Assembly: GCA_033391075.1 (NCBI GenBank)
Contig: JAWPMV010000001.1
Coordinates: forward strand, 7,068,001-7,132,000
Length of the DNA: 64,000 bases
Reading direction: 5' to 3'
Source of the DNA: Bacteroidia bacterium
Lineage (GTDB): Bacteria; Bacteroidota; Bacteroidia; J057
Shown: positions 15,476 to 49,287 of the stretch, piece by piece
How positions within the stretch are numbered: position 1 is the first letter of the stretch
Layout of the letters: every line of letters begins with the position of its first letter
Notes under the pieces: model-generated
What the model saw: only the letters and a program-made list of their open reading frames with translations
Databases searched by the model: none
Told to the model about the DNA's origin: nothing
Translations under genes and position numbers: made by a program

Positions 15476-17217
15476 TGCGCTTCAACAATTTCCTTACAAC
15501 GCTTTAATGGCTCTACAACTTTTTCGGTTTCAAGCGCGTTTAACTCCCCAGATTTTGCGCTGAGGAACCCAAACATATTTACACCCTTCTTGGCTGACAT
15601 CAGCTTAACGTATTGATCATCAGTTTTACCTGTACCATAATGATTTTCAATAGCTTGTTTCAGTGGCGAATTAACTAAATCTGATTCCAGGTCTTTGTTT
15701 GCCAGATAGAAGTCAATTTTACAAAAGGCATCCCTAAAACCATTTATTGCGGTTTCCACTGTAGGATCATCCGGGTTATCAATGTCATTAACAGTCTGGA
15801 AAGCAGAATCAATTTGGTTCTTGATTTCCTCAACTTCTACACCATTGGCATTGTAAATATTTTTTCCAACAGAAATACCCCTTGCGTACTGATTCCCATT
15901 ATTCTTTTTAATTACATCTAGATCTGTTCTAATCACCCAAGGTATATTTAACGAATTGAATAGCTTTATGTATGCCTCGAATCCAATTCCTTCAACGCTC
16001 AGCACGCTGATATTATAGAAATCTAAGTCAATCCCTATTTGGCTACCTAATGCCTTGTAAAACATAACTTCAGAAACACCCTCAACCAGTAATACAGCAC
16101 TACAAAAGAAGGCTTCTGCTGGAAGGATATTCATCCGGTGGGCAAAATCAATGACTGCACCTCCGATATTTTGACCACACCCATCACTCGCAGCCTTTGT
16201 ATCGGGTTTATTGTTGTATAGCTTTACAATCGAGTCAGGAGAAAACTCACTTGCTATTTGAGGAGAATGGCTTGAGATGAAAAGTTGACTCGAAGTATTG
16301 TTAACGAAATAACTGGCAAGCTTCCTCTGTTGGTGAGGGTGAAGGTGGGCTTCGGGTTCTTCTATACAGTAAATGGTTACCTCTTTATCAAAGTCCTCCT
16401 GGATCTTATTCTTCGTAGCCCACAAAGCAAAGTAGATCTGATTATTTCTACCAGCCCCTCCAATCGATAATTGGTTATCATTAACCGAGTTGGCCAACTT
16501 AATATTCTCAATGAAGTCCTTTGCCTCAGCTTCAACCACCTCGAATACTACTTTATTCCCATGATGGTGGTAAGCGAGCTTCTCCAATTCAGTGTTGAGA
16601 TGGTCAGTTGAATTTTGAATGTAGGAGAGTTCTTTTACCAAGCTATTTATTTCTCCTAGCTTATTTTTAAGCTCAGCTTGTTTGGTGTCGTCGGCATCGA
16701 CTACCGCCTGATCGGTCCGTAAAGTCTTTGCATCTTCTAAGAGGTTTTTCTTTTCTCGGCGAATGTAATCGAATAGATCCCGGTTACTATCAATGTACCT
16801 CAAGTTAAGAACACGTAGATAATCAGGACGACTGATCGGAGTGAAATTAGTACCATCAGGAGACGCGCTGATTCGAAATGGTTCGTCATTGTTGCCCCGG
16901 AATCCTTCATATCTCAGAAATACTTCGTGAGTATCGCTACAATACTTACCTAACTTTGCTACAAGGCAGTCTTCCGTAACATCAATTAGTTTTAGTGTTA
17001 TCTCGATGGCGTCTGTTTGCTCATGCACGTAAAAGTCAGAATCATCAGGTTTGAGATCTTGATAGGATAATCCAGGATCAAGCAACAAGCGAAATGCCCG
17101 AATAAAGTTTGTTTTTCCAATATCATTTGGACCTATGATCAGGGCCTGTTGTGCAAGGTTAATAGTTGCATCCTTAAAATTGCGGAAGCCTTTAATGGTA
17201 ATTTTTGAAATCTTCAT
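15472..17217 (-). CDS. gajA: Gabija protein GajA, OLD-family ATPase-nuclease
   Basis: I set the start at the ATG at 17217 (MKISKITIKGFRNF), the normal beginning of OLD/SMC-like ATPases, giving 581 residues, close to the known GajA length; the 78 residues upstream in frame are not conserved in character. Walker A is GPNDIGKT (29-36). The signature and Walker B region is CIEEPEAHLHPHQQ. The Toprim nuclease domain follows with LLVEGVSEVMFY and RTDLDVI. GajA nicks DNA when nucleotide pools fall during infection. With gajB it forms a complete two-gene Gabija operon on the minus strand. Confidence 0.94.
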   Translation of the reverse strand: MKISKITIKGFRNFKDATINLAQQALIIGPNDIGKTNFIRAFRLLLDPGLSYQDLKPDDSDFYVHEQTDAIEITLKLIDVTEDCLVAKLGKYCSDTHEVFLRYEGFRGNNDEPFRISASPDGTNFTPISRPDYLRVLNLRYIDSNRDLFDYIRREKKNLLEDAKTLRTDQAVVDADDTKQAELKNKLGEINSLVKELSYIQNSTDHLNTELEKLAYHHHGNKVVFEVVEAEAKDFIENIKLANSVNDNQLSIGGAGRNNQIYFALWATKNKIQEDFDKEVTIYCIEEPEAHLHPHQQRKLASYFVNNTSSQLFISSHSPQIASEFSPDSIVKLYNNKPDTKAASDGCGQNIGGAVIDFAHRMNILPAEAFFCSAVLLVEGVSEVMFYKALGSQIGIDLDFYNISVLSVEGIGFEAYIKLFNSLNIPWVIRTDLDVIKKNNGNQYARGISVGKNIYNANGVEVEEIKNQIDSAFQTVNDIDNPDDPTVETAINGFRDAFCKIDFYLANKDLESDLVNSPLKQAIENHYGTGKTDDQYVKLMSAKKGVNMFGFLSAKSGELNALETEKVVEPLKRCKEIVEAQ

Positions 17218-17417
17218 AGGCACGACTACACTCGGTGTTGACTCTTTTGAGAAAAAGGAAATTAATTTCTTATAAGGTATAATTCGGCTCAATAAAGAAA
17301 AGGTTCGATCCACCCACCTATACCTAGCTCTAATCGAAACAAAATATTCACATATTGATCTGAAACTGGGCTTCATCTTAAGGTATACTGAAAAGCAAGT
17401 GAAGCGTTCGGCGACTA

Positions 17418-17443
17418 AACGAGGATTCTGAAGATTCCTCGTT
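17418..17443 (+). promoter_or_regulatory. Leader hairpin upstream of ardC
   Basis: Perfect 8-bp stem AACGAGGA / TCCTCGTT with a 10-nt loop followed by CTTTTCATTT, 53 bp before the ardC ATG. It resembles a weak intrinsic terminator and could attenuate ardC. The intergenic region 17218-17496 should also hold the gajA promoter. Confidence 0.45.
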
Positions 17444-17496
17444 CTTTTCATTTGTCAGAAAGCTGATCTCCATTTTTTCACCAAAAATTTATCGTC

Positions 17497-33941: not shown

Positions 33942-36866
33942 TTAAATCTTATGCGCTTTCTTAATGATGGTGAATAGATGCTCCACAATATCGGTCGCTA
34001 TATTTGGATCATCTACCTGCGACAACACTGCAAAGGTGACCTTCCGACGTAATTCCCTATAATCCCGCTCACTACTTACCCAGTTCACATGCTCAGTAAA
34101 GGCTCCCTTTATTCTTTTGCCTACTTCTTCGGCTTCTCCCACACCCACATCAAGTAACGTTCGATAGAAAAAGAAAGTAAGTCCATCAAAGCCTTTTTTA
34201 GACTGCTCCCTTCTGCGGCGGTTATCTTCTTCGATTTGTTTGAATAACTCTTGAAGGGCTTCAGAAGTGGTCATTTGCCGATTCTCAAAGCTTTCTTTAA
34301 CTGTCTGTGCTCTGTCTGACATGGCAATAAGGAAGGGATCACCACTTTGTTCTTCTGCATTCTTTTCAATACTCTTTACCAAGTTAATGACCTTGGTATT
34401 ATCGCCACCGGTTTTCTTTTGGATCTGCGAAATGGTGTCTTCATTTATTTCATAAAATTCATTGACCATTTCAATATCCGTAGCCCCTATTTTCTCTTGA
34501 ACAAGCTCACTGGTCTTTTTTTGGAAATCCCTATCAACGTATACCCGTTTGGCATAAGCCCGGCTTACAACCTGGTAAATTGCACTCAGCGTTCCATAAT
34601 CATCAATGTATGACCGTAAAAAGGCATCAGGAGAAATAATTTCGTAGAGCATTTCAATCTCTTTGTACTCTTTGAAAAATTCTTTTCGTCGGTCTTTATC
34701 ACGGAAGTATTCGATCAGACTATCAACATCTTTATCATTAAAATTCTGTTCAATTAATGCCAGGTACTGAGGAGCTTTATCCCGCATTTTCGAGGCGAAC
34801 AGTGTTTTGAGTAGTTTGATGTCTTTTACAATGGCGTTGATCTCTTCACTATCGAAGGCCAGGGCAGCTTCCAACTTGTCAAAGATCCCGACAAAATCTA
34901 ATACGAATCCATGAGGTTTGACCATTTCCTGATCCTCATTTTCGTACGGCCTATTAACGCGGGCAATTGCCTGGAGAAGGGTGTGGTCACGCATGGGTTT
35001 ATCAAGGTACATGGCGTAGAGAATGGGGGCGTCAAAACCAGTAAGAAGTTTTTCGGTCACGATGAGGATTTTCGGTTGCTCTCCATGTTTGGTGAATTCC
35101 CGGCGAATACGCCGCTCTTCTCGTTCGTCTATATGAAACTCCTTGAGAAGTTCTTTATCGTTGTTATTTCCAGTATAGACGACAGCTGAATAGTCTCCGG
35201 GCAGGTATTTATCAATCGCCTTTTTATACAAAGCACAAGCTTCTCGGTCTACTGCAACCAGAAATGCCTTATACCCTAATGGCTCAACATTCAGCTGATA
35301 GTGCTCGGCAACATACTTAGCCACCTTTTCAATTCGATTTCTCCCTTTGAGGAAATTCTTAATATTGACAGCACGATCCAGAATTTTGTTTAGCTCCTCA
35401 ATGTCTGCCACCCCTTCTGATTCTGCCAAGGCCAAAAATTCATTTTCAAGGTCTTCTACTGGGACCAACATTTCATTGGGAGCCAGATTGTAGTACAGCG
35501 GAAGTGTTGTTCCATCAGCAATACTGTCTTTGATTGTGTATTTATGGAGATAGCCCTGGGCGTCATCAACGCCAAAGGTTTTGAATGTACCTTTCCCGTA
35601 GGCAGTTTTATCAATTGGTGTCCCGGTAAAGCCAATATATGTGGCATTGGGGATACCAGCCATGAGATAGTTACCCAAGTCGCCTCCAGTAGTACGGTGA
35701 GCTTCATCAACCAGTACATAAATATTGGACCGGGTGTTAACGTTAGGCTTGAGATCACGGAATTTATGAATCATAGTCACGACGACACCGCGATAGTCAT
35801 CACGTAATATCTTCTGAAGCTCTTTAATGTTGTAAGCATGTCTAACATTATTCAACCCCAAAGATGTCAGATTTTTAAGCATCTGGTCTTCTAACTCATT
35901 GCGATCAATCAAAAGAAGAATGGTAGGCTTTTCAGATTCAGGAGCCTTGAATAGTAATTCTGCTGCCTTGATCATCGTAAATGTCTTTCCACTACCCTGA
36001 GTATGCCACACCAAGCCTCTTGTTTTCTTGGCATCATGCGAACGCTCAACGACGGCCTCAACCGCCTCAGTTTGATGCTGGCGAAGAATGTACTTTTGCA
36101 TCATCTCATCCTTTTCGGCGAAGATCACGTAATCCTTAACCATTTTAAGGAGTCGTGTCGGTTCACAAAATGATTTTACTTTAGATTCAAGATGTCCGAT
36201 TTGCTCATCCTTCCAGTTAAAGATATTTCGGCGTACCAAATTCCAGGTTACACCATATGCAAAGCCTATTGATTCTGTTGCAGTAAACAACATTTGAGGA
36301 ACGAACAATTCTGGAGTCTCACGGTGGTAGCGACGAATTTGATCAACCCCAAGTGCAATGGCTTCGTCTTTGTTGGCATTTTTACACTCGATGACTAAAA
36401 TCGGCATACCATTAACCAGGAATACTACATCTTCTCGTGTTCCATATCGTCCATTGTTCCAATAGAATTCTTCGGTTACATGAAGTGTATTGTTTTCAAA
36501 ATTGTCATAATCGATGAGTTTGAGATCGTATTCACGATTTTCTCCAGGATGAAAAAATGTAGCCTCATTACGGAGGTATTGGTGAAAATTTTGATTGCCC
36601 CAGATATCGTGATGGAGCCGAGAAAAATCTCCAATCAATGCTCCTTTTGACTCAGTATACTCTGGATTTAGTTGTATAACTTTTTCATATAGGTGATCAG
36701 TAAAAAAGGCTGAAGCGTTTTTGGCTTTTTCTGCTGGAGAAGTTTTTGACTGATCAAAACCGCGAAAGGATTCTGCTTCAGAGCGAGGGACAAATGTCCA
36801 CCCAATTTCCTTGGCATATTTCAAGATGCGAGCTTGGACAGTTTTATGTTCTCCTGGTTTAGGCAT
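33942..36866 (-). CDS. hsdR: Type I restriction enzyme R subunit (HsdR)
   Basis: 974 residues. The N-terminal nuclease domain has the PD-(D/E)XK residues Asp146 and Glu160-x-Lys162 (ILVIECKNANKDEA). The motor follows: LVWHTQGSGKT Walker A (about 286-295), DEAH (387-390), FTGTPI, and a TGFDAPILYAMYLDKP / QAIARVNRP helicase end. The C-terminal helical domain binds the methylase core. It translocates DNA and cuts unmethylated DNA away from the recognition site. Its start overlaps the hsdS stop by 8 bp, so expression follows HsdS. Confidence 0.95.
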   Translation of the reverse strand: MPKPGEHKTVQARILKYAKEIGWTFVPRSEAESFRGFDQSKTSPAEKAKNASAFFTDHLYEKVIQLNPEYTESKGALIGDFSRLHHDIWGNQNFHQYLRNEATFFHPGENREYDLKLIDYDNFENNTLHVTEEFYWNNGRYGTREDVVFLVNGMPILVIECKNANKDEAIALGVDQIRRYHRETPELFVPQMLFTATESIGFAYGVTWNLVRRNIFNWKDEQIGHLESKVKSFCEPTRLLKMVKDYVIFAEKDEMMQKYILRQHQTEAVEAVVERSHDAKKTRGLVWHTQGSGKTFTMIKAAELLFKAPESEKPTILLLIDRNELEDQMLKNLTSLGLNNVRHAYNIKELQKILRDDYRGVVVTMIHKFRDLKPNVNTRSNIYVLVDEAHRTTGGDLGNYLMAGIPNATYIGFTGTPIDKTAYGKGTFKTFGVDDAQGYLHKYTIKDSIADGTTLPLYYNLAPNEMLVPVEDLENEFLALAESEGVADIEELNKILDRAVNIKNFLKGRNRIEKVAKYVAEHYQLNVEPLGYKAFLVAVDREACALYKKAIDKYLPGDYSAVVYTGNNNDKELLKEFHIDEREERRIRREFTKHGEQPKILIVTEKLLTGFDAPILYAMYLDKPMRDHTLLQAIARVNRPYENEDQEMVKPHGFVLDFVGIFDKLEAALAFDSEEINAIVKDIKLLKTLFASKMRDKAPQYLALIEQNFNDKDVDSLIEYFRDKDRRKEFFKEYKEIEMLYEIISPDAFLRSYIDDYGTLSAIYQVVSRAYAKRVYVDRDFQKKTSELVQEKIGATDIEMVNEFYEINEDTISQIQKKTGGDNTKVINLVKSIEKNAEEQSGDPFLIAMSDRAQTVKESFENRQMTTSEALQELFKQIEEDNRRRREQSKKGFDGLTFFFYRTLLDVGVGEAEEVGKRIKGAFTEHVNWVSSERDYRELRRKVTFAVLSQVDDPNIATDIVEHLFTIIKKAHKI

Positions 36867-38037
36867 AGGCTTCAGACTTTTCTAGTGTATCAAAATCTAA
36901 ATTACTTACCGAAATTTCTGCGGTCATTAGTTTGTGGAGAAGAGTGCGAAATAAGGATTCAAGAGATTTCTTTTTTTTCTTGTGAACAGATAATTTATCA
37001 TCAATGGAATCTAAAATTTTAGTCATTTTTATTTGCTCTTCTAGACTTGGAACTGGCACTAAAATACTTCTAAAAGTGTTCCGATTTAATGTTGGGACTG
37101 CAACCCCAGATTTGTACTTTTCCAGCTTCAAATTGTTAAGCTGATAATAGCAAAATTTAGGATGGTTCCCGTGAAAATCCTTCACATATAAAACAACATT
37201 ATGGGCCCAAAAGTCATTAGAATAAAAAGTGGCTTTCCCAGCAGAAGAACCACTCCTTGTAACTGTAACTCCTGGCCCTGTTACATTGGCCTCGTTATGG
37301 TATCCAATTATTGAGATTGCTCCAGCAACTGGTATTTCTCCCTTTATAAATTCTTTTTTCGTCAGATCTTTCCCCCTTTGGAGGGTGGTAAATTTATCAA
37401 ACATTACCAAAGTCCAGCTCTCAGGTATTGGGCCAATCTCTGTCATCTTCTTTGGCTCACTCTTTATTCCCTCTGTGAACAATTTATGCACCAAAGCTTT
37501 TTTCAACTCTGATGTTAATTCAATCAGTTGATCTTGCAACTCAATAGCTTGCTGAACTGTAGAAAGGACATATGCTATTCTTCTTTGTTCAAAAATACCT
37601 GGAGTGGGAAGCTCTATTTCTTGAAAGTTACTTTTATTCAAGATCGGAAGCGTGGTCTTAACTGAAGCTTGGACCAAAATAGGTCGGTTATAGAGAACTA
37701 AATAGTAAATAAAATCAGGATCATAATTTTCATTACATATAATAGCGTTAATCTGTTGGTTAAACGCTGAAACTTCATCAGTTGTCATGCCAATCTTTCC
37801 AATATTTCCAATGCATCCCACAAGAACAGCGTTTTTTGGTAAAGTCCTAGCCACTTTTATTCCTTCTTCCGTCAGTAGTTTGTGTGAGGTTTTAATAGAT
37901 TTCCCTCGATCCAAATCTTTGGGAGAAATAAGTTTATACGAACCACCATAGAATTCCTTTTTTTTGCTACTAGGGGTTGTACCAGTAAGAATTCTCCCGA
38001 AATCTTTGATCTTATGCTTGACCCATTTATCTTTCAT
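36859..38037 (-). CDS. hsdS: Type I restriction specificity subunit (HsdS)
   Basis: 392 residues with two target-recognition domains, each followed by a helical spacer: the first opens KIKDFGRILTGTTPSS and ends TPGIFEQRRIAYVLSTVQQAIELQDQ; the second opens SWTLVMFDKFTTLQRGKDL and ends VPSLEEQIKMTKILDSIDDKL. This is a complete HsdS that should read a bipartite site; the site cannot be predicted. No second or truncated hsdS or inverted repeats for shuffling were seen nearby. Overlaps hsdM by 4 bp. Confidence 0.93.
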   Translation of the reverse strand: MKDKWVKHKIKDFGRILTGTTPSSKKKEFYGGSYKLISPKDLDRGKSIKTSHKLLTEEGIKVARTLPKNAVLVGCIGNIGKIGMTTDEVSAFNQQINAIICNENYDPDFIYYLVLYNRPILVQASVKTTLPILNKSNFQEIELPTPGIFEQRRIAYVLSTVQQAIELQDQLIELTSELKKALVHKLFTEGIKSEPKKMTEIGPIPESWTLVMFDKFTTLQRGKDLTKKEFIKGEIPVAGAISIIGYHNEANVTGPGVTVTRSGSSAGKATFYSNDFWAHNVVLYVKDFHGNHPKFCYYQLNNLKLEKYKSGVAVPTLNRNTFRSILVPVPSLEEQIKMTKILDSIDDKLSVHKKKKKSLESLFRTLLHKLMTAEISVSNLDFDTLEKSEAYA

Positions 38038-39602
38038 ATACCTAGCTTTTCCAAAATTGAAAATATTTGTCTATTCACATCCTCAGCATCTTCTTCAAGA
38101 GTATTTATTTCATCTATTATCTCTCTAATTGGTCTATACTCCTCTGTCTCCCTGGCATGTATATACCGGCTCGGTGAAATATTATAGTCGTTTTTTGCAA
38201 TTTCTTCTTTGTGTACTATTCGACTTAATTTCTCTTCCTCATCTTTCCAGTTTGTGAAAATGCTACTGATGAGTTTGATTCCTTCATCAGTGATAAAGTT
38301 TTTAGGATCTCCTTTTTCGAAGACTTTACTTGCATTAAGTAGGAAGATTTTATCCTTTCGCTCAGCCGGTTTATCCTTTTGAATGAAGACAATAATCCCC
38401 GGCGCTGAAGTGTTGTAAAAGAGGTTTTCCGGTAGGTAAATTACCCCCTCGACCAGATCATTATCTACAAACCACTTACGGGCATCTTTTTCTTTGTTCG
38501 TGTTGGCATTACCTGATCCACGAGATGCCGCCCCGGTATCAAGGACTACAGCAGCCCGACCATTTTCCTTCAAGCTAGCATAAATATGTTGCATCCAAGC
38601 CCAATCAGCATTACCTCCAGGATTTTGACTAAAGCGGTCATAGGGATCATTTTCAAAGAATTCTTCTCCAAGATATGGTAATGAATCCCTATTTTGATTC
38701 CACATGGGATTAGCAACTACTCGATCAAATTTCTTAATTCTGTTTCGGTCGATTAATTTTGGATTCTTCATCGTATCTCCCAATTCGATCTCTCCCTCCA
38801 TATCGTGAACGATCATGTTCATTTGAGCCATTGCCCAGGTCTCGGGGGTAAATTCTTGCCCATACAATTTTAGTGGCGATATTTTGCCTTTACCAGCAAA
38901 CTTTTCACCCAGGACAATCTGATTTTTAATAAGGAGCCCACCCGACCCACAAGTGGGATCATAAATTTCCATTCCGGGCTCAGGGTCCATTATTTTCGCC
39001 ATAATAATCCCAACCTCGGTGGGAGTATAAAACTCACCCGCACTCTTTCCGCTGTTTTCTGCGAACTTACGGATAAGGTACTCGTAACTTCGGCCGATAA
39101 CATCAGGCTCAACATCCTTGATACCCAGCTTCTTTTCGCTAATTTTTTCAATAAGATTTGAAAGGCGATCATCATCAATATCACGCTGCCCATGCGTGGT
39201 AGCATTGAAGTCCACACGATCAATTATTCCTTGGAGGGTTGGGTTTTCTTTGGCAATATCACGGAGAATGGTAGTGAGTTGCTCGCCAATTTTACTCGCC
39301 AATTTTCTAATCACTGACCACACTGGATCGTCATGATTATCTGGGGTCAAAGGTAGGTAAAAACGAACAAGATCATTATCAAGTTTTACCAAAGCAAATG
39401 CCTTTTTCCTGGAACCAACTTCTTTTGCAATACGGTCTAGTTCGTCATCAAATACATCACAGAGACGTTTAGTAAATATAAGAGGAAGAATGTAGTCCTT
39501 AAACTTGGGGGCATCTTTCGCTCCTCTGATACTACAGGCTGCACCCCAAATCCATGATTCGAGTGATTTTTGTTCCGTTCCGTTCTTAGTTGTATTCGCC
39601 AT
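38034..39602 (-). CDS. hsdM: Type I restriction methylase subunit (HsdM)
   Basis: 522 residues. SAM-binding motif I is DPTCGSGGLL (215-224). The catalytic motif is NPMW (298-301) in place of the common NPPF; the N-P pair is retained, and this variant exists among HsdM proteins as I recall. HsdM_N helices (LESWIWGAACSIRG... YILPLIFTKRLCDVFDDEL) precede. Adds methyl groups to adenine with HsdS. First gene of hsdMSR; the GxxExxY gene stops 2 bp upstream, so the operon may begin further up. Confidence 0.94.
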   Translation of the reverse strand: MANTTKNGTEQKSLESWIWGAACSIRGAKDAPKFKDYILPLIFTKRLCDVFDDELDRIAKEVGSRKKAFALVKLDNDLVRFYLPLTPDNHDDPVWSVIRKLASKIGEQLTTILRDIAKENPTLQGIIDRVDFNATTHGQRDIDDDRLSNLIEKISEKKLGIKDVEPDVIGRSYEYLIRKFAENSGKSAGEFYTPTEVGIIMAKIMDPEPGMEIYDPTCGSGGLLIKNQIVLGEKFAGKGKISPLKLYGQEFTPETWAMAQMNMIVHDMEGEIELGDTMKNPKLIDRNRIKKFDRVVANPMWNQNRDSLPYLGEEFFENDPYDRFSQNPGGNADWAWMQHIYASLKENGRAAVVLDTGAASRGSGNANTNKEKDARKWFVDNDLVEGVIYLPENLFYNTSAPGIIVFIQKDKPAERKDKIFLLNASKVFEKGDPKNFITDEGIKLISSIFTNWKDEEEKLSRIVHKEEIAKNDYNISPSRYIHARETEEYRPIREIIDEINTLEEDAEDVNRQIFSILEKLGI

Positions 39603-40037: not shown

Positions 40038-40820
40038 CTACCGGATGGTCTCAATCTCTAATGCTTTCTTTTTGTCGAAAGAATCAAGCTGTATTCCAAG
40101 CCGCCTCAGGCGATACTTCCTCCCATCAACTACCACTCCCTGAAATTTTCCCTTCCGGTGATACGAATCAAGTCCGTCAGCTTTAAGTTTTTCCTCAAAG
40201 TCAGCGATTGACTTGGATTGTTCTAAGACAGTCTGGACTCGCTGAAAGACTTTTTCCTTGGTGGTCTGCTGGCCGGTATTTAGTTTGTACCAATACTCCC
40301 GGTCAGAGAGTTGGGGCGAAGTAGCTCGACCATGAGCAACTACTGACTTACTCAGTTCTGGGTAATATTCCTGCTGGTAGTCCTGGGTGTGTTGTTTGAG
40401 CTCACCAAAAGCCTGCTTAGACAACCGCATAGCTTTACCAGATTTATACTCCACGCCACTGACACAGAGATGGACATGATAATGATCTTGGGACAGGTGA
40501 ATAACACCCATATATAAGCCATTGGGATTGCGCTTGGCTATGTACTCCCTGGTCATGTCTTCTATCCCTTCCAGAGTGAGGTAAGGCGTATCTTCAGGGT
40601 GCCAGGAAAGAATTTCATGGGTAAGGATGACACTATTTTTGCGGCGGTGTTGCCGGTAGCTTTCATTGACTTCAAATTCATGAACCCAGGTCTGAATATC
40701 ATTACCTGAGAGATTATGGAGCATGATCCGGCTATCAGGTACTCGTTCTTCGCTGTGGATCATGTAATTGAGTAATTGACGGAAGGCTTTGTTCTTCCGT
40801 GATTTAACTTTGATGATCAT
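40038..40820 (-). CDS. MOBP-like relaxase
   Basis: 260 residues. Catalytic tyrosine candidate Tyr19 (LLNYMIHSEER), a second motif with VILTHEILSW (His68) and the metal-binding triad HYHVH at 113-117. This is a short relaxase domain without a helicase or primase extension; the C-terminal part (FQGVVVDGRKYRLRRLGI) is a conserved end of such short relaxases. It nicks oriT and is carried to the recipient. Third gene of coupling protein, MobC, relaxase cassette. Confidence 0.88.
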   Translation of the reverse strand: MIIKVKSRKNKAFRQLLNYMIHSEERVPDSRIMLHNLSGNDIQTWVHEFEVNESYRQHRRKNSVILTHEILSWHPEDTPYLTLEGIEDMTREYIAKRNPNGLYMGVIHLSQDHYHVHLCVSGVEYKSGKAMRLSKQAFGELKQHTQDYQQEYYPELSKSVVAHGRATSPQLSDREYWYKLNTGQQTTKEKVFQRVQTVLEQSKSIADFEEKLKADGLDSYHRKGKFQGVVVDGRKYRLRRLGIQLDSFDKKKALEIETIR

Positions 40821-40836
40821 GATGATGGTCTATGCC

Positions 40837-40855
40837 ATCAACTAGGGTGTGCTCA
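40837..40855 (+). promoter_or_regulatory. Shared GCACACCC motif, copy 3
   Basis: ATCAACTAGGGTGTGCTCA between the MobC stop and relaxase start; the reverse complement TGAGCACACCCTAGTTGAT matches copy 1 with a 2-nt deletion. Given its place between mobilisation genes it could also be a nick region. Confidence 0.5.
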
Positions 40856-41338
40856 TTATGATAGTTTTGGTGGGTGGTGGAAAGCATCGTGAATGATGGT
40901 TTCCATGTGATTGATCCTCTCAGCCAGATCCAGGTAAGCCTGGTTGAGTTCTGGTAGATTTCGCTTGTGAACATGCCGGGCAATCATGCGAATGTCGGTC
41001 TGACACAGACGCAGGCGTTGCTCCAAGCGACTGACTGGTTCACGGTCAGGTACCAGGTAGGTCTGATTGAGATAGGATAAGGCTGCGTGTTTGATGAACG
41101 ATGGTAGTGAGTAATGATGTTGCTGGGCGGCGTGAGTCAGTTTCAACCAGTCTGGTTTAGCCAAAGTAATGGTTACCTCTGGTCGTTCTTTGCGTTTTTG
41201 TTTGCGGTACTTACGTTGATATTGACGTTTGTATTCTTTTTTGACAGCTTCGATAGCTTCTTCATTCCCTGATTCTAAAACTCCTGATTGCTCCAAATAT
41301 TCCCACATACCGGTATTCCGGCGAATAGGTTTAGGCAT
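40856..41338 (-). CDS. MobC-like relaxosome accessory protein
   Basis: 160 residues. A basic N-terminal region (KKEYKRQYQRKYRKQKRKERPEVTITLAKPDWLKL) with an RHH-like start is followed by a helical stretch (RLEQRLRLCQTDIRMIARHVHKRNLPELNQAYLDLAERI) with the NQIAR-type MobC pattern, here in the form TDIRMIARHVH. MobC proteins help open oriT for the relaxase. Lies between coupling protein and relaxase genes, 12 and 35 bp from each. Confidence 0.78.
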   Translation of the reverse strand: MPKPIRRNTGMWEYLEQSGVLESGNEEAIEAVKKEYKRQYQRKYRKQKRKERPEVTITLAKPDWLKLTHAAQQHHYSLPSFIKHAALSYLNQTYLVPDREPVSRLEQRLRLCQTDIRMIARHVHKRNLPELNQAYLDLAERINHMETIIHDAFHHPPKLS

Positions 41339-41350
41339 AGAAGGATATGA

Positions 41351-42736
41351 TTAGGTGTTGGATAATTGAGTAAGGGCTAACAGTCCTCGTTGTTGGTAGT
41401 AGGGTTTGAGGTTTAGTAACATGGGCGGATAGTTTCCCGCCATGAGTAAGCCTTGATTCTGCTTCATGGTGCGGACTTCATCGCGGGTGATCAGTGGTCT
41501 GGTCTGAGTGCGTCCCTGGTTATCCTCATACTGGTAGCGTCCTAGTCTCTGCTCCAACTCTTCCGACGATCTCCCAGATTGTCCGGTGAAATAGAGCTTA
41601 GCAAAACAGTTACCTGCAATCGTGCTGGCCTCGTATGGCCCGAAATTGTGAACGAGCTGGCTCATCTGCTGTATCCCAAGCAAGATTCCGGCTCGGTACT
41701 TTCTCACATTACTGATCACATTGCCCAGTGAAGGCAAATACAACACCCCTGCTTCATCAATCAAACAAAAGACATCCTGGTGCCAGGGTTGTGGCATTCG
41801 TACCAGCAATTCCCCGAATAGTTGCTCAAAGAAGAGCGATGATAGCATTGCGTAGTAAGCTTGATCGGTAACGGGATTCTGGATGAACAGTACTGTTTTC
41901 TTTAGACGAAATTCGTGCAGAGCAATCGTGTCATGATTGGTTACCTCAGCCACGGCCTCATCGGTGAAGATGTGTAATGCGCTAGATACAGTTGCGATAA
42001 TGCCCGCTTTGACTTTGTTATCATAGGCTTGGAAAGTCTTGAACTCAGCGCGGAGCGACAAATTATCTGAAGCTTCAACTTTCCTGGTGAAGAAGGCTTC
42101 ATCACCACTGAGTTGATTGAGATAATGACGCACCTGGCGGAAGGTCTGGCGTTCACGGACTTCAGCTTTGACTAGGGTAATCAGGAGAGTAAGTAAGGCC
42201 GTGGCTTGCAGGTTCCAAAAGGGATCACCCTTAACCCCACCTAATGCCGTCCGAATCACCAGACTGGATACCTTGTTAATATCACTGGATGACCTGGCCC
42301 GGTAAAGAGGATTGAAACGGTCTGAATGTTTTGGATCGGCGAAGTTTAAAGTCTTGATGATATATCCTCTTCGCTTGAGAGCTGGGGTGGTCAGTTGTGC
42401 CAATTCACCACTGGGGTCATGGCAGATATATGAAGCATTCATTCGTAATAGGGATGGAACAAAGACCACTGATGATTTACCAGATCCGGTTGATCCGATC
42501 AGGAGGGAATTTTTGTAGGAATCTTCCACTGACAGACTCTTTTCACCCGTCAGACAGAAGCCTTTAAGGTTGCGTTTCAGTAAACTCTTGGGACTACCAA
42601 ATGAAGCTCCGTAGCCTTGTTTTTTCTTTGGGAGACCATTGGGAAATATCCAGGTAAACAGTGCTTCAAAAAATTTTTCAACGAAAAAGAAGGCCGTATC
42701 TACAATGCCTTCAATAAGTCTCAGAATATGGTGCAT
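41351..42736 (-). CDS. TraG/VirD4-like coupling protein
   Basis: 461 residues. Walker A IGSTGSGKSS at about 80-89 and Walker B VFCLIDEAGVL, with the VRKYRAGILLGIQQMSQL helix and TRDEVRTMKQNQGLLMAGNYPP ending typical of TraG/VirD4 ATPases. The N-terminal region (1-32) is hydrophobic and amphipathic but shorter than the normal two-helix anchor. It should link the relaxosome to a secretion channel encoded elsewhere. Confidence 0.88.
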   Translation of the reverse strand: MHHILRLIEGIVDTAFFFVEKFFEALFTWIFPNGLPKKKQGYGASFGSPKSLLKRNLKGFCLTGEKSLSVEDSYKNSLLIGSTGSGKSSVVFVPSLLRMNASYICHDPSGELAQLTTPALKRRGYIIKTLNFADPKHSDRFNPLYRARSSSDINKVSSLVIRTALGGVKGDPFWNLQATALLTLLITLVKAEVRERQTFRQVRHYLNQLSGDEAFFTRKVEASDNLSLRAEFKTFQAYDNKVKAGIIATVSSALHIFTDEAVAEVTNHDTIALHEFRLKKTVLFIQNPVTDQAYYAMLSSLFFEQLFGELLVRMPQPWHQDVFCLIDEAGVLYLPSLGNVISNVRKYRAGILLGIQQMSQLVHNFGPYEASTIAGNCFAKLYFTGQSGRSSEELEQRLGRYQYEDNQGRTQTRPLITRDEVRTMKQNQGLLMAGNYPPMLLNLKPYYQQRGLLALTQLSNT

Positions 42737-42785: not shown

Positions 42786-43886
42786 CTATTCAGGTAGTAG
42801 GCCCATTAATCCTCTTATTCCATTTTCCGAAAATTCTTTAGGAATTTTTGTGCTTTGTACTAAATACTCCAGCGTTGCAATAGCAAAATTCACCAGCATT
42901 GCATTAGTTGAGACGAGATGATTGCTATATGACCAATCAGTGTTAGTATCAAAATTCATAAATGCTTGTTCTTTAAGGATTATTGGAACTTTGTGTGCGA
43001 AATTCGGCTTACTCAAAATTTTTCGTACCAATTCGAGAAACTTTGGCCAATTAGGCAATGAAAGATCCTTTGGTAAATATTCGTCATCTCCCGATTGCTG
43101 TGAAAATGCTCGTTTACGTAGCTGATCCCAGTAGGCGTAATTCTCCACTCCACCCCAAATAATAGCTTTTAAATCAGCATCCAATTCATCTTTTGAAAAT
43201 GAAGTTAAGCTTTGGTTGAAAAGCATCACCACAATTTGGTTCAAGCTAATTGCAAACATCGAAGCACTATCAAGTATGAGGAGTCTATGGTCAGGATTAT
43301 CTGGATTTAATTCTCTCCACATAGACCGTAAGTTGCTCACTAAAGTTCTCAACTGGACATTGGACTCAGTTTCATTCCAAAAACCAGTTTGGAGATAGTC
43401 GATGAGGGTTTCTAGCCTAGGATACTTCCTTCTCAATGCAAAGTATTTATCCCAGTGATCTCCCATTGCCAGAGCACTATTATGCACATTCAGGTAATCA
43501 GCTGTCGCCTTGGAGAAAGTTTCAAAATCTGTAACACTAAATAAGTGAATTCCTAGTTCTTCGGCTACAAGTTTATGGTCTTTTTCTAAATTATCCTTTC
43601 CCAAGATAATTGTACCCTTTTTTGCATTATAAAAATCCATTACTCCCTTAATCCAAAAAACACGAGTAATAGCAGATATTTTTTTGCTTGATTTACAATC
43701 GTAAATGAAAGAAAATAGCTTCCCGTCAGTGTTTGGTACCAAACCGAGCACATCGAGATCGGTCAATTCCTTACGAGAAGTGGAAATCTCTTTTCTTGAT
43801 TGGAGTTTTACCTCCATCTGAGGGTACCACTCTTTCTGGATCAAGTAACGAACAACATCTTCTTTTATAAATTTATCTTTAATCAT
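42786..43886 (-). CDS. PD-(D/E)XK nuclease-like protein of unknown family
   Basis: 366 residues. Near the N-terminus: ELTDLDVLGLVPN (Asp45) and FSFIYDCKSSKK (Asp63-x-Lys65), spaced as in PD-(D/E)XK restriction-type nucleases, with a preceding basic region and a helix IKGVMDFYNAKKGTIILG. The remaining 250 residues are helical with no known domain. Its start overlaps the 465-residue gene by 4 bp (ATGA), so the proteins should be made together and may form a complex. I infer a DNA-targeting, possibly defence, function. Confidence 0.6.
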   Translation of the reverse strand: MIKDKFIKEDVVRYLIQKEWYPQMEVKLQSRKEISTSRKELTDLDVLGLVPNTDGKLFSFIYDCKSSKKISAITRVFWIKGVMDFYNAKKGTIILGKDNLEKDHKLVAEELGIHLFSVTDFETFSKATADYLNVHNSALAMGDHWDKYFALRRKYPRLETLIDYLQTGFWNETESNVQLRTLVSNLRSMWRELNPDNPDHRLLILDSASMFAISLNQIVVMLFNQSLTSFSKDELDADLKAIIWGGVENYAYWDQLRKRAFSQQSGDDEYLPKDLSLPNWPKFLELVRKILSKPNFAHKVPIILKEQAFMNFDTNTDWSYSNHLVSTNAMLVNFAIATLEYLVQSTKIPKEFSENGIRGLMGLLPE

Positions 43887-45280
43887 GCATTTGCTGCTTT
43901 AATAAACAAATTTTCCAATTCTTCCTTATGCTCTTCTGAGAGTGGGACTGTCTCGGTTTGACGCAATTTAGCGGCTGAAATTATTGACTCAATATACGTT
44001 TGCTCTTTTTGCAGAGCAATTTGTGCCTCTTCGTTAATCTCAAGTGAAGAAAATCCCCCAGTGTCGAGCATCTCTATAGCTGTGTCTAATGCTTGACGAT
44101 TCTCTTCGTTTTTAATGAGTTGAAATTGATATCGGTTACCACTTGTCTGAACTAATTTGCCCACTTTCATGACACTAAGGTTTCGATATTGCTCCATAGC
44201 TTCAGAATTTGACCCAATAAACCCTCTGCTTCTCAAAGCGTTAAGAATGGCTCTTGGATTACGGATTCGATATTCCTTTGGCAAAAGCTGCCCTTGCCTA
44301 ACAGCAGCAATCAACGCCATAGCTCGTTCATATATAACCCTATTAGCAGGATTGAGCTTTGTTGATCCAGGTGCCGGAGTAAAGAGAAAGAAATTTTCCC
44401 CTTTGTGTTTAGTAGTAATTGAAGGTGGTTTTACTTGTCCATCTTGTGCTAAGCGCTTAAGAAGATTTATTTCATCCTGTGTAACTTTTACGCCATTAAT
44501 TTCTTCCCTAGTTTCAATTAAGGCTAAAGGCCATCCTTGGGCCTCTTCAATAAGTTTAAGAATCTTTTGAATCTGACTTGAACCTGATTTTGCTACCAAA
44601 TCGGCATAGAGATCTGCATTTTGAGCAAAAAATATTGGAGACAATAAGACATCTTTGCCACGAGCACGTTTGGTTAGAAGGTATCCTCCCTGTTGACCAA
44701 TATCAAGCCCACGTTTTACGAGATTTTTCTCTGCGCCTAGATCATACAACGTATCGGAAAAAGTCGGCGCTTGAGAGAGTTTAGTGAGAATAACTAAAGC
44801 TAAGTCTTCCGATTCATTATATTGAGTCTCATTTTCGGCATACTCACCCACACGATCATAAATATCTTCAAAAAAAGGAACATCCGGAATTACTGTTTTA
44901 ATACGAGTTCCTTCAGTATCTAATTTCACAAATTCTATTTCGGCCAGAGCATACAGCAAATTGGGTAATATTATGCCGGGGATGTTGAAGTAATAGGGAG
45001 CCGCAAGCTTAAGAATTTCAAACTTGATGGGAGGTAAATCACGGATATGCAAGGAAAGGTTTACCAGCATTCCCACTTTTGTGAGTTCATCATATTCTGG
45101 AACTTGTGTTCTACCGAGCGAGGTTGTTATATCATAAGAAACTGATGCTTTTTCTGAACGGTTCATTTGGTTTTGGGAAACATGTTGTTTGTTGTTTGTG
45201 AAGGCGCAAGTGTATAATTTTCCAAAATTAGACAAATAATTAATCAAGCCCATGAGTGAACTAGTAAATATATTGACCAT
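43883..45280 (-). CDS. Hypothetical 465-residue partner protein
   Basis: Start is uncertain: GTG-TAATG overlap at 45280 supports MVNIFTSS, while the ATG at 45166 (MNRSEKASVSYDIT) looks more conserved. The rest contains two winged-helix-like stretches (ILKLAAPYYFNIPGIILPNLLYALAEIEFVKL and INLLKRLAQDGQVKPPS), an ALALIETREE region and a TPAPGSTKLNPANRVIYERAMALIAAVRQGQLLP block. No ATPase or nuclease motif is visible. Middle gene of a coupled trio with the HTH and the nuclease-like protein. Not recognised. Confidence 0.6.
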   Translation of the reverse strand: MVNIFTSSLMGLINYLSNFGKLYTCAFTNNKQHVSQNQMNRSEKASVSYDITTSLGRTQVPEYDELTKVGMLVNLSLHIRDLPPIKFEILKLAAPYYFNIPGIILPNLLYALAEIEFVKLDTEGTRIKTVIPDVPFFEDIYDRVGEYAENETQYNESEDLALVILTKLSQAPTFSDTLYDLGAEKNLVKRGLDIGQQGGYLLTKRARGKDVLLSPIFFAQNADLYADLVAKSGSSQIQKILKLIEEAQGWPLALIETREEINGVKVTQDEINLLKRLAQDGQVKPPSITTKHKGENFFLFTPAPGSTKLNPANRVIYERAMALIAAVRQGQLLPKEYRIRNPRAILNALRSRGFIGSNSEAMEQYRNLSVMKVGKLVQTSGNRYQFQLIKNEENRQALDTAIEMLDTGGFSSLEINEEAQIALQKEQTYIESIISAAKLRQTETVPLSEEHKEELENLFIKAANA

Positions 45281-45561
45281 TACCGCACGATTTGAATCAC
45301 AGGCAATGAGTTAAGTACCTCAGACCTTTTAAAAAGCACCCTTCCCCCAAAACGGATAAAGGGAATCTTTCCTTCTCGTTTCTTCGCATGAATATTTTGC
45401 GGAGTGGTCTGGAGAAGTTCAGCCACCTGCTTTACGTTGAGCAATTCCTCTAGTGGTAGTTGTCCCGGTATGGGATGATCCTCAAAGTATCTTTCGATCT
45501 CTTGGCGGAAGATGTCTCTGAGTTCTTGTTCACTGAATTGGGTGAAAGATACTTTTTCCAT
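45280..45561 (-). CDS. HTH_17-type DNA-binding protein
   Basis: 93 residues. A helical N-terminus (ELRDIFRQEIERYFEDHP) is followed by LEELLNVKQVAELLQTTPQNIHAKKREGKIPFIRFGGRVLFKRSEVL, a MerR-like excisionase-type winged helix frequent in Bacteroidota. The TAATG at its end overlaps the start of the next gene. In an operon with a nuclease-like protein it is probably a regulator or DNA-targeting subunit rather than an excisionase. Confidence 0.8.
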   Translation of the reverse strand: MEKVSFTQFSEQELRDIFRQEIERYFEDHPIPGQLPLEELLNVKQVAELLQTTPQNIHAKKREGKIPFIRFGGRVLFKRSEVLNSLPVIQIVR

Positions 45562-46182: not shown

Positions 46183-49100
46183 ATGTCTACTCACCATAGC
46201 GACATACTATCCAAACGATTCTATGACTGGGAAGTCTGGGGACGAGGCTGGTTTGTCCATGGTGAACCGATCTTCCCTGAACCCCCGTTTACCCCTTTCC
46301 CTGGTCATAGTATTGTCGCTACTAAACCTAAAGACGATACTTTCCGGCACAGTATCAGTAGCTACATTCTCTCTGCTATCAAGAATAGGATAGTAGGTAA
46401 GCCGGGAGATAATAGTGAAGAGGAACAATCCGTGGCTTTACCGAAGATATTTCCCGTTGTTGAAGAGTTGACAGAACTGGTCATGGCCATACCGCCAGAC
46501 TTTACGGTATCTCCATCGGTCATGGAGCAGTTCTTGGTGATGATTGCGAGTACCAAGTCTCCTGTTTCCTTTGAGATCGTTGGTACCCATCAGCATATAT
46601 TCTTTCAGTTTACCTGTCGGCTGTCTGAGGCAGGCTATGTCAGAAGTCAGCTCAAAGCCTTCTTTCCGCAAGTAGTGGTACAAGTTGCTGATGGTTCGTT
46701 GTATGGGGCTTTAGCCAGAGAAGAGTGTCTCAGTGTTACCTTAGAACTAGGACTGACGGAAGAGTTCATGCGTCCTATCAATATGCCAACCCAATTGGAC
46801 GTTGATCCCTACACCGCTATTGTTGGTATATTGGATGACTTGGACGAACATGAGGTAGCTGCTATTCAGATCCTGTTTCATGGAACAGAACGTCCCTGGG
46901 CTGATAGTGTGATCCGGTCAGTAACCACCAGCCGGGGAGAACCGTTCTTTCTCGATGCACCTGAGATGACCACGCTTGCCAAGGAGAAAGTAAGTCAACC
47001 ACTGATGGCCGTCAATGTACGTTTGATTGCCCAATCAAGAGATGAAGCGGCCTATGATCTGGCCGCATTACTAGGGAATGCTCTGGTGGCAGGTACGGAA
47101 CGAGTGGGATCAAATGCTCTGCAAGCCTTAGAAGCTGACGGCTTGGAGCATGTTAAATTCCTAACGTCATTGATCGAGCGTACCACCTATCGCACTGGAA
47201 TGATTCTTAACGTCAGGGAATTGATGGGCTTGGTCCATTTGTCCGGGAATCTGCCGTCGAATAAGCTGGTACAGTTTAGTAAGAGTAAACGAGCACCAGA
47301 GATAACAAATATTGAGGAATATGTTATTGGCTACAATCCTCATCAGGGAGAAGCTCATACTGTAGGGCTACCGTTGCCGGTACGACTTCGTCATATTCAC
47401 CTCGTTGGTGCTACGGGGACGGGTAAATCTACCTTACTCGTCAATCTCATCCTTCAGAACATCCTCAATGAACCTTATGGCGGAGCCGTCCTTGATCCCC
47501 ATGGTGATCTCATTGACGACATTGTCGCTCAAATTCCAGAACACTTACAGCATAAATTTATCCTGATTGATCCCAGTGATGATCTCTACTCCATTGGGTT
47601 TAATCTGTTATCCGCTAACAGTGAACATGAGAAAGTTATGTTGGCCTCTGACTTGGCCGCTAGCTTTAAGGCCCAGACGACCAGTTGGGGTGATCAGATG
47701 GATACCGTCCTTCAAAATGCCATTGCAGCTTTCCTTGAGAGTAGTCGCGGCGGCACTCTGATTGATCTGCGACGATTTCTGGTAGATGAGAAATTCAGGA
47801 AGCAGTTTCTCACCACGGTTACCGATCCCTTGATCGTCTCCTACTGGGAGAAAGAGTTTCCCAAGTTACGTTCTGGCTCAGTGTCATCACTGTTGTCCCG
47901 GATGCAGTTGTTTCTGCGGCCCAAGCCCGTCCGCTACATGCTCATGCAAAAAGAGGGGCTGGACTTTAATCAGGTAATGAATGACGGGTTAATCTTGTTA
48001 GTCAAACTCTCACAGGGTCTCATTGGTGAAGAGAATAGTCATCTATTAGGATCAATGATCCTCACCAAACTCTATCAGTCAGCCTTAGGCCGACAAGTCT
48101 ACGACAAACACGAACGGGTGCCTTTCTTTGTTTACCTGGATGAGTTTCAAAACTTCATTACCCCTACCCTGGAGGGGATACTCTCAGGCGCAAGAAAGTA
48201 CGGCTTAGGTCTCGTCTTAGCCCATCAGTCGATGGATCAATTGTATCGCCGCAGTCCGGCCGTAGCCAATTCCGTGATTGCTAACGCAGGTACCCGGATA
48301 TGTTTTCGTCTCGGGGACAATGATGCCAGTAGTTTGCAGAATAGCTTTGCTGACTTTGATGCCAATGATCTGTTGTCGCTCAAGATCGGTGATGCCATAG
48401 TTCGTGTGGGTACCAAAGATCAGGATTTTAATCTCAAGACGCTGTTACCGGACAAGGTACCCCTGGCCACTGCCAGAGGGCGGTATCTGTCAGCTCTCCA
48501 TATATCCAGTCTCACCTTTGGCACACCAATTCGGGAACTGGAAGAGATCCTTCAGCGAGAGTATGCGGGTGATAAAGCTGACAAGTCATCTATCTTTGAA
48601 GAGGTAGATTTTACCGAAGTACCCGACGAACCAGAGGTAAAACCAACCAGCAAGCCAAAGCCACCCAAGGAACCCCGATTTCTGTCTGCGCCACCACAGA
48701 CCAAGACCAAACCAGTTGAGACCACCACTGATCCTGAAACAGCGCGGGAGGAGATCATTAAACGTGCCAAGCAAAAGGCGGAAGAAACTGAGCATCGGAG
48801 CCTTCAGATGCACATCAAAAAGGTGGCCGAAGGAATGGGATATTTGTCTGTCATGGAAGCCCCCACACCTGACAGAAAAGGTCGAGTTGATGTCCTGTTA
48901 ACCAAAGACAAACACACCATTGCCTGTGAGGTAGCCGTAACCACCACCAACCAGCATGAACTGGGTAATATTCAAAAGTGTCTGACAGCGAAGTATTCCC
49001 TGGTGGTGGTCGTCTCAGAAAAGCCTAAGCGATTGGAGAACATAAAATCCTTGGTGGCGAAGTCAGTCTCCAAGACCGCCCAGAAGCGGATTCACTATGT

Positions 49101-49287
49101 GAATAAGGATGGTTTCTTTCAGTTACTCATGGAGTTGAAAGTTAAGTCGAAGAGTACGGAAAAGACGATTAAGGGTTATCGCGTGAAGTCTTCATATAAG
49201 GCGGTATCTGGGAAAGATGCACAACGGATGCAGGAACAATTGGCAGATATTTACATGAAGTCCAAAAAGTCAAAGCCCAAAAAATGA
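46183..49287 (+). CDS. TraD/HerA-like ATPase with nuclease-fold C-terminal domain
   Basis: 1034 residues. The N-terminal 370 residues are not recognised. ATPase motifs: GATGTGKSTLL near 408-418, VLDPHGDLIDDI, VYLDEFQNF near 648-656, and ARKYGLGLVLAHQSMDQL. These are type IV coupling or HerA-like DNA-pump motifs. A Pro/Lys-rich linker (VKPTSKPKPPKEPR) leads to a C-terminal domain (about 870-990) with GRVDVLL (Asp903) and IACEVAVTT (Glu916) where the catalytic lysine of PD-(D/E)XK is replaced by Ala918. It probably moves DNA during transfer, with the tail binding DNA. Its end overlaps the convergent HTH gene by 18 bp. Confidence 0.82.
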   Translation: MSTHHSDILSKRFYDWEVWGRGWFVHGEPIFPEPPFTPFPGHSIVATKPKDDTFRHSISSYILSAIKNRIVGKPGDNSEEEQSVALPKIFPVVEELTELVMAIPPDFTVSPSVMEQFLVMIASTKSPVSFEIVGTHQHIFFQFTCRLSEAGYVRSQLKAFFPQVVVQVADGSLYGALAREECLSVTLELGLTEEFMRPINMPTQLDVDPYTAIVGILDDLDEHEVAAIQILFHGTERPWADSVIRSVTTSRGEPFFLDAPEMTTLAKEKVSQPLMAVNVRLIAQSRDEAAYDLAALLGNALVAGTERVGSNALQALEADGLEHVKFLTSLIERTTYRTGMILNVRELMGLVHLSGNLPSNKLVQFSKSKRAPEITNIEEYVIGYNPHQGEAHTVGLPLPVRLRHIHLVGATGTGKSTLLVNLILQNILNEPYGGAVLDPHGDLIDDIVAQIPEHLQHKFILIDPSDDLYSIGFNLLSANSEHEKVMLASDLAASFKAQTTSWGDQMDTVLQNAIAAFLESSRGGTLIDLRRFLVDEKFRKQFLTTVTDPLIVSYWEKEFPKLRSGSVSSLLSRMQLFLRPKPVRYMLMQKEGLDFNQVMNDGLILLVKLSQGLIGEENSHLLGSMILTKLYQSALGRQVYDKHERVPFFVYLDEFQNFITPTLEGILSGARKYGLGLVLAHQSMDQLYRRSPAVANSVIANAGTRICFRLGDNDASSLQNSFADFDANDLLSLKIGDAIVRVGTKDQDFNLKTLLPDKVPLATARGRYLSALHISSLTFGTPIRELEEILQREYAGDKADKSSIFEEVDFTEVPDEPEVKPTSKPKPPKEPRFLSAPPQTKTKPVETTTDPETAREEIIKRAKQKAEETEHRSLQMHIKKVAEGMGYLSVMEAPTPDRKGRVDVLLTKDKHTIACEVAVTTTNQHELGNIQKCLTAKYSLVVVVSEKPKRLENIKSLVAKSVSKTAQKRIHYVNKDGFFQLLMELKVKSKSTEKTIKGYRVKSSYKAVSGKDAQRMQEQLADIYMKSKKSKPKK

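Follow-up and report, generated by a model that had tools for sequence, protein, structure and literature searches.

Three neighbouring minus-strand reading frames in a Bacteroidia genome raise the question of whether they form one functional unit and, if so, what this unit does. They lie in a stretch of 64,000 nucleotides, hereafter called the window. According to the original prediction they constitute a translationally coupled operon of a helix-turn-helix (HTH) gene, a gene for a 465-residue protein and a nuclease-like gene, situated on an element full of defence genes. All three reading frames were found where predicted (Table 1); the second and third are named MID and NUC here, and individual loci of the family are designated by L numbers.

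Gene calls and composition of the unit

The first gene indeed encodes an HTH protein, of the excisionase type. No other MID locus has a comparable neighbour, and no homologue was found in the plasmid collection. The HTH gene was therefore rejected as a component; it probably belongs to the host element and not to the MID-NUC unit. Thus, the three genes do not hold together as one unit in other genomes, where the pair recurs and the HTH gene does not.

The start of MID was chosen by homology. In an alignment of 44 sequences the MID homologues start at the equivalent of M39, 38 codons downstream of the start of the 465-aa reading frame, and the profile match ends at the same position (45166). 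In-frame stop codons are located just upstream of this conserved start in L006, L015, L016, L017 and L030. Since the homologues begin at M39 and these five relatives have upstream stops, the gap between the HTH gene and MID, as read from the sequence, is probably about 114 nt. Nevertheless, a longer MID product may be made in the organism of the window, the frame being open there. The TAATG overlap between the HTH gene and the longer frame exists in the DNA, but it was rejected as a sign of coupling because the MID start used there is not conserved. The second overlap is real: the ATG of NUC overlaps the stop codon of MID (ATGA), and an overlap of exactly 4 nt recurs at 18 of the 47 other loci. 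Coupling of all three genes can therefore not be upheld, with the HTH gene outside the unit and the MID start at TAATG not conserved, and a fixed ratio of the products does not follow from overlapping codons.

Table 1 Features in the window (positions refer to the 64,000-nucleotide stretch)
Feature	Position	Strand	Description and basis
ORF, 419 aa	10595..11854	minus	near defence genes; no Pfam or PADLOC match
Large serine recombinase	11987..13708	plus	Resolvase and Recombinase domains
GajB (Gabija pair)	13796..15475	minus	PADLOC E 3.5e-165
GajA (Gabija pair)	15472..17451	minus	PADLOC E 2.7e-199
ORF, 544 aa	30778..32412	minus	near defence genes; no Pfam or PADLOC match
Type I restriction-modification set HsdR, HsdS, HsdM	33942..39602	minus	PADLOC
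ORF, 105 aa	39605..39922	minus	just upstream of hsdM
Relaxase, MobC-like and T4SS coupling-protein genes	40038..42736	minus	between type I set and NUC; Pfam; MobC label by position and look only
NUC	42786..43886	minus	366 aa; PD-(D/E)XK nuclease domain (predicted) and helical C-terminal domain
NUC all-helical C-terminal domain, residues ~140-366	42789..43469	minus	AF2 model, alignment
NUC nuclease domain (predicted), residues 1-130	43497..43886	minus	AF2 model, VIA matches, residue table
MID	43883..45166	minus	~427 aa; four tandem winged-helix domains (predicted); start M39 of longer ORF
Second winged helix of MID, residues 99-175	44642..44872	minus	secondary structure and conservation
Longer MID ORF	43883..45280	minus	465 aa
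HTH_17/excisionase-type gene	45280..45561	minus	93 aa; directly upstream of MID; Pfam E 1.5e-8; NCBIfam TIGR01764
HerA/TraG-type ATPase	46183..49287	plus	1034 aa; divergent from HTH gene

Family and database searches

No sequence-level relative of MID or NUC was found in Pfam, PHROGs, NCBIfam or the PDB, and neither protein matched any model of PADLOC-DB 2.0.0 (2023) at E values up to 1, in agreement with the earlier view that no known defence system is represented. Scanning the homologues one by one against Pfam gave nothing consistent; lone weak matches to TS_C and Mrr_cat (E 0.06) were not trusted. MID had no match in the phage collection, although contigs of IMG/VR carry it. In the open-licence literature neither the accessions nor a defence pair of a winged-helix protein and a nuclease came up, and a description outside this literature or later than the 2023 PADLOC release may exist. 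Every piece is of known type (winged helix, PD-(D/E)XK, two-gene cassette), and the combination appears to be new to the sources searched.

NUC contains a predicted PD-(D/E)XK nuclease domain

NUC was modelled with high confidence by AF2 (mean pLDDT 92.9); the alignments used for the models of NUC and MID were made without rows of the plasmid collection. The N-terminal part shows the core order alpha-beta-beta-beta-alpha-beta (H5-17, E21-29, E40-51, E57-65, H72-86, E90-95) that is expected for PD-(D/E)XK enzymes, with a conserved acidic residue on strand 2 and a (D/E)-x-K motif on strand 3. The two motifs noticed in the original prediction, TDLDVLG and YDCKSS, are present and contain these residues: D43, D45, D63 and C64 are found in all 45 NUC homologues and K65 in 44 of them. 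E25 is kept throughout, as D in the rows of Actinomycetota, and R75, W78, G81 and H104 were noted as further residues of this domain. In the remaining homologue, on a phage contig (L053:3469-4569), the predicted catalytic K65 is replaced by R, and this protein is possibly inactive.

The structural comparison with VIA gave AF1548 as the best match (Z 12.8, rmsd 3.0, 117 residues), followed by VC1899 (Z 12.0, rmsd 2.5, 116 residues), Can2 (Z 11.6, rmsd 2.8, 112 residues) and Cdn1 (Z 11.1, rmsd 2.6, 113 residues), with EndoMS and Card1 next. Among the matches listed, those with Z ≥8 comprise AF1548, VC1899, Can2, Cdn1, Card1, NucS/EndoMS and the EcoT38I and AspBHI types. Foldseek gave no match for NUC with E < 0.001. 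Mutation of the pair E276/D278 inactivates Can2 (PMC7969007). D43-x-D45 of NUC has the same spacing, and by analogy D43 and D45 may be equivalent to the Can2 pair.

Residues ~140-366 are all helical in the model and were barely covered by the fold comparison; R180, H200, G245-G246, W280 and Y341 are conserved in this part. A Rossmann-like or CARF domain was not seen in the rest of NUC. Taken from the model and the residue pattern, the assignment of the N-terminal part as a PD-(D/E)XK nuclease domain is supported as a prediction, and NUC would be expected to cut DNA in a metal-dependent manner.

MID is modelled as an array of winged helices

The AF2 model of MID has a mean pLDDT of 83 and a pTM of 0.73 and comprises four winged-helix units (residues 26-94, 99-175, 177-261 and 273-350), units 3 and 4 being delimited from secondary structure only. 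Residues 18-190 gave structural matches to winged-helix proteins, and VIA retrieved single winged helices, RsrR and BigR among them (Z 6-7). The winged-helix type of the first two units is thus supported at the level of the model, and the earlier description of MID as winged-helix-like and free of known domains agrees with these results.

RPC62 (RPC3, RNA polymerase III) was the best Foldseek match (E 4.8e-4). Like other tandem winged-helix proteins it is a string of winged helices, and this building plan is shared with MID, but the whole-chain TM score is only 0.16-0.20 and does not establish kinship or a common function. Kinship to RPC62, or to any other one family, was accordingly not assumed. 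The wing tip of the second winged helix reads R167-A-R169-G170-K171, with R169 invariant. Such a basic tip (R167, R169, K171) would suit a contact to DNA, which is suggestive, and we infer from the modelled fold that MID probably binds DNA.

MID and NUC are conserved side by side and inherited together

At 47 of 48 homologous loci, from at least ten phyla, MID and NUC are immediate neighbours; this count leaves out two duplicate loci. Scanning genome contigs with the MID profile yielded 38 loci, to which IMG/VR added three, and in each of these 41 NUC follows MID directly; the spacing ranges from -59 to +11 nt by mechanical starts in these loci and up to +31 nt in plasmids. A tblastn search of plasmids gave nine records with adjoining MID and NUC, from Priestia, Burkholderia glumae, Komagataeibacter, Roseomonas, Streptomyces and Mycolicibacterium, and one with MID alone. 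The host phyla are Bacteroidota, Bacillota, Pseudomonadota, Actinomycetota, Cyanobacteriota, Acidobacteriota, Armatimonadota, Chloroflexota, Verrucomicrobiota and Myxococcota. No gene family other than MID and NUC themselves is common to more than four loci, so that no third constant partner emerged.

The trees of MID and NUC agree in their main clades, and the pairwise distances of the two proteins are strongly correlated (Mantel r 0.90, a value not reached in any of 2000 permutations). The two genes are conserved and inherited as a pair. The distribution of the pair is sparse: within its own phylum MID occurs in one of 395 sampled genomes, that of the window, and the contig scan added two further Bacteroidota genomes (L015, L030). 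L029 and L052, from different families, encode identical proteins, and the copy of Nodosilinea groups with copies of Pseudomonas and Halomonas, which argues for horizontal movement of the pair. In Pseudomonas sp. FEN (L034) a segment of 4.77 kb with the pair and one more gene takes the place of 255 bp in a relative (G483), while the flanks are 93% identical; the additional gene (L034:12798-14261, minus strand) encodes a 487-aa protein of unknown kind.

Some loci deviate from the common arrangement. MID is split into two ORFs at L047:10031-11316 and L050:9923-11264, which may reflect decay, programmed events or errors of sequencing. On one 158-kb contig of Jeotgalibacillus the pair occurs twice (L017, L018), 83 kb apart and with the same match score; this is possibly a circular element that was assembled twice. 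The sole lone MID (L013:9704-10978) stems from a member of the Streptomycetaceae, and no remnant of NUC was found beside it, as tblastn gave weak matches only.

These data bear on the possibility that the pair is a toxin-antitoxin or abortive infection module, in which a toxic NUC would be held in check by MID, which would also repress the operon, so that loss or inactivation of MID would free NUC. Such a pair would stabilise plasmids and bring about the death of infected cells. The two genes overlap and lie on plasmids and prophages, the first encoding a DNA-binding-type protein and the second a predicted nuclease, which would suit this explanation, as would the locus with MID but without NUC. 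Type II antitoxins are small proteins of low stability. With about 427 aa, as compared to 366 aa for NUC, MID is large, and it is better conserved than NUC, which is the reverse of a typical antitoxin. Furthermore, no NUC homologue without MID was found: all NUC matches in 29 carrier genomes, one of which has two copies, were NUC genes already known beside MID. We consider this explanation unlikely.

Genomic context of the pair

In the window the pair adjoins the relaxase, MobC-like and coupling-protein genes, suggesting a mobilisable element, and the large serine recombinase is a possible integrase of the element. The claim of an element full of defence genes held in so far as a Gabija pair, the type I set and mobilisation genes are present in the window; they may reside together on one element. 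Two side observations concern the neighbourhood: a C-terminal stretch of the HerA/TraG-type ATPase (GRVDVLL...ACEVA) looks nuclease-like by eye, and nearby proteins carry T9SS sorting tails, which together with the MID tree point to a host among the Bacteroidota.

The carriers at other loci are chromosomes, plasmids (conjugative, non-mobilisable or, in Streptomyces, linear), contigs of temperate phages and type I operons. The pair is flanked by a portal gene and a scaffold-like gene in L053; it is located beside an integrase gene in L054 and L055, whose contigs also contain terminase and primase-helicase genes, just downstream of integrase genes in L022, L024 and L025, and directly after the MobF relaxase gene on the Roseomonas plasmid. 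The neighbours among the matches listed include YhcG/DUF1016, AbiL, GmrSD, IetA, Lamassu and MADS component models as well as integrases and RepB, a tally without background control. A type III CRISPR gene was not among the neighbour families listed.

Some of these positions would fit a role in the maintenance or transfer of mobile elements, with NUC as a Holliday-junction or relaxosome-type nuclease that acts together with a DNA-binding partner in replication, excision or conjugation. This applies to the mobilisation genes in the window, to the Roseomonas plasmid and to the three loci with upstream integrase genes. But the carriers, with two kinds of phage position among them, have nothing in common, and genes for integrase, relaxase or replication are found at a few loci each at most. 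Likewise, no relaxase, coupling-protein or mating-pair gene recurs across the loci, and no match to a known transfer or housekeeping operon, which would have spoken against the original prediction, was found across the 48 loci. A role in maintenance or transfer is therefore regarded as quite improbable.

The type I genes deserve separate consideration. MID-NUC could work with or guard HsdRMS, much as PrrC is associated with type Ic enzymes. Two distant hosts (L019, L020) possess an operon of the order HsdR-HsdS-MID-NUC-HsdM, although in L019 the contig ends within hsdM, and in the window the type I genes are 3.2 kb away from the pair. N6_Mtase matches lie within 20 kb of the pair in 5 of 30 genomes versus 0.25 expected (P ~5e-6), a value that assumes uniform placement and does not correct for shared islands; proximity to defence genes can result from shared mobile islands and not from shared function. 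There is precedent for a defence system embedded in a type I operon, namely DarTG2 in EPEC (PMC12255303). But 10 of the 30 carrier genomes lack an N6_Mtase match and most copies of the pair have none nearby, so that a link to type I systems cannot be obligatory; constant linkage to hsdR, hsdM or hsdS was not seen. An accessory function for type I enzymes thus seems very unlikely. Relaxase, integrase and type I restriction genes were all rejected as constant partners, since none recurs constantly across the loci.

Comparison with known systems

The CARF effectors Can2, Card1 and Cdn1 and the protein VC1899 share the PD-(D/E)XK domain with NUC (VIA Z 8.8-12.0, rmsd 2.5-3.0 over 110-117 residues), and the acidic-x-acidic pair of Can2 is likewise found in NUC. 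In contrast to these proteins, the nuclease domain of NUC is N-terminal, its C-terminal domain is all-helical with no CARF domain (for binding cyclic oligoadenylate) seen, the identity is 13-17%, and NUC comes with MID, itself built of modelled winged helices, and not with a CRISPR system. AF1548 and the archaeal nucleases of the EndoMS/NucS type have the same core fold, but no MID partner is known for them and the identity is about 14%.

Two cassettes resemble the pair in their organisation. PARIS (AriA-AriB) is a two-gene cassette on phages, satellites and chromosomes (PMC9122126), and MID-NUC also occurs on phages as well as chromosomes. However, neither AriA, an ATPase, nor AriB, which belongs to DUF4435, resembles MID or NUC, and no PADLOC model matched the latter two. 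In the RRDM island of EPEC, DarTG2 sits between hsdS and hsdR (PMC12255303), which resembles L019 and L020 in that a two-gene defence module lies between hsd genes; DarTG2 consists of different proteins and is a toxin-antitoxin system.

A candidate two-component defence system

With a probability of roughly 0.6, MID-NUC is a two-component system, so far undescribed, that defends cells against phages or other mobile DNA. This explanation is favoured because of the sparse spread, the behaviour as a cassette, the carriage on phages and plasmids, the embedding in restriction operons and the conserved nuclease site. The last of these also answers the objection that the proposed catalytic residues might vary among homologues, as they are conserved. 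The genomic context, with N6_Mtase genes more often nearby than expected, neighbours that match defence models, and Gabija and type I genes in the window, likewise points to defence. MID would be the DNA-reading part, would bind to some feature of foreign DNA as it enters or replicates, and would recruit or license NUC, a metal-dependent nuclease of the PD-(D/E)XK type. NUC would then cut the foreign DNA or, less likely, act on DNA broadly and thereby halt the infected cell. On this basis the two proteins would be expected to form a complex and the pair to protect against phages or plasmids.

Several observations weigh against defence. The position after MobF in Roseomonas would also suit a transfer role, the higher conservation of MID is unlike the situation in many systems where the sensor varies faster, the whole-fold match of MID to RPC62 is weak, no member of the MID-NUC family has a named defence function, and the nearness to defence genes may stem from shared mobile islands. 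A more specific version assumes a system of the restriction kind that lacks a modification enzyme, in which the winged helices would distinguish foreign from own DNA by structural or replication-linked features, and not by sequence methylation, and position NUC on it. It takes into account that neither a methyltransferase nor an ATPase accompanies the pair, and we regard it as rather doubtful.

If the defence explanation is true, MID-NUC would be a compact system that works without an ATPase, helicase, methylase or CRISPR partner, is distributed over at least ten phyla and is not represented in the family libraries searched. Since temperate phages carry it, it would also be a candidate weapon in the competition between phages.
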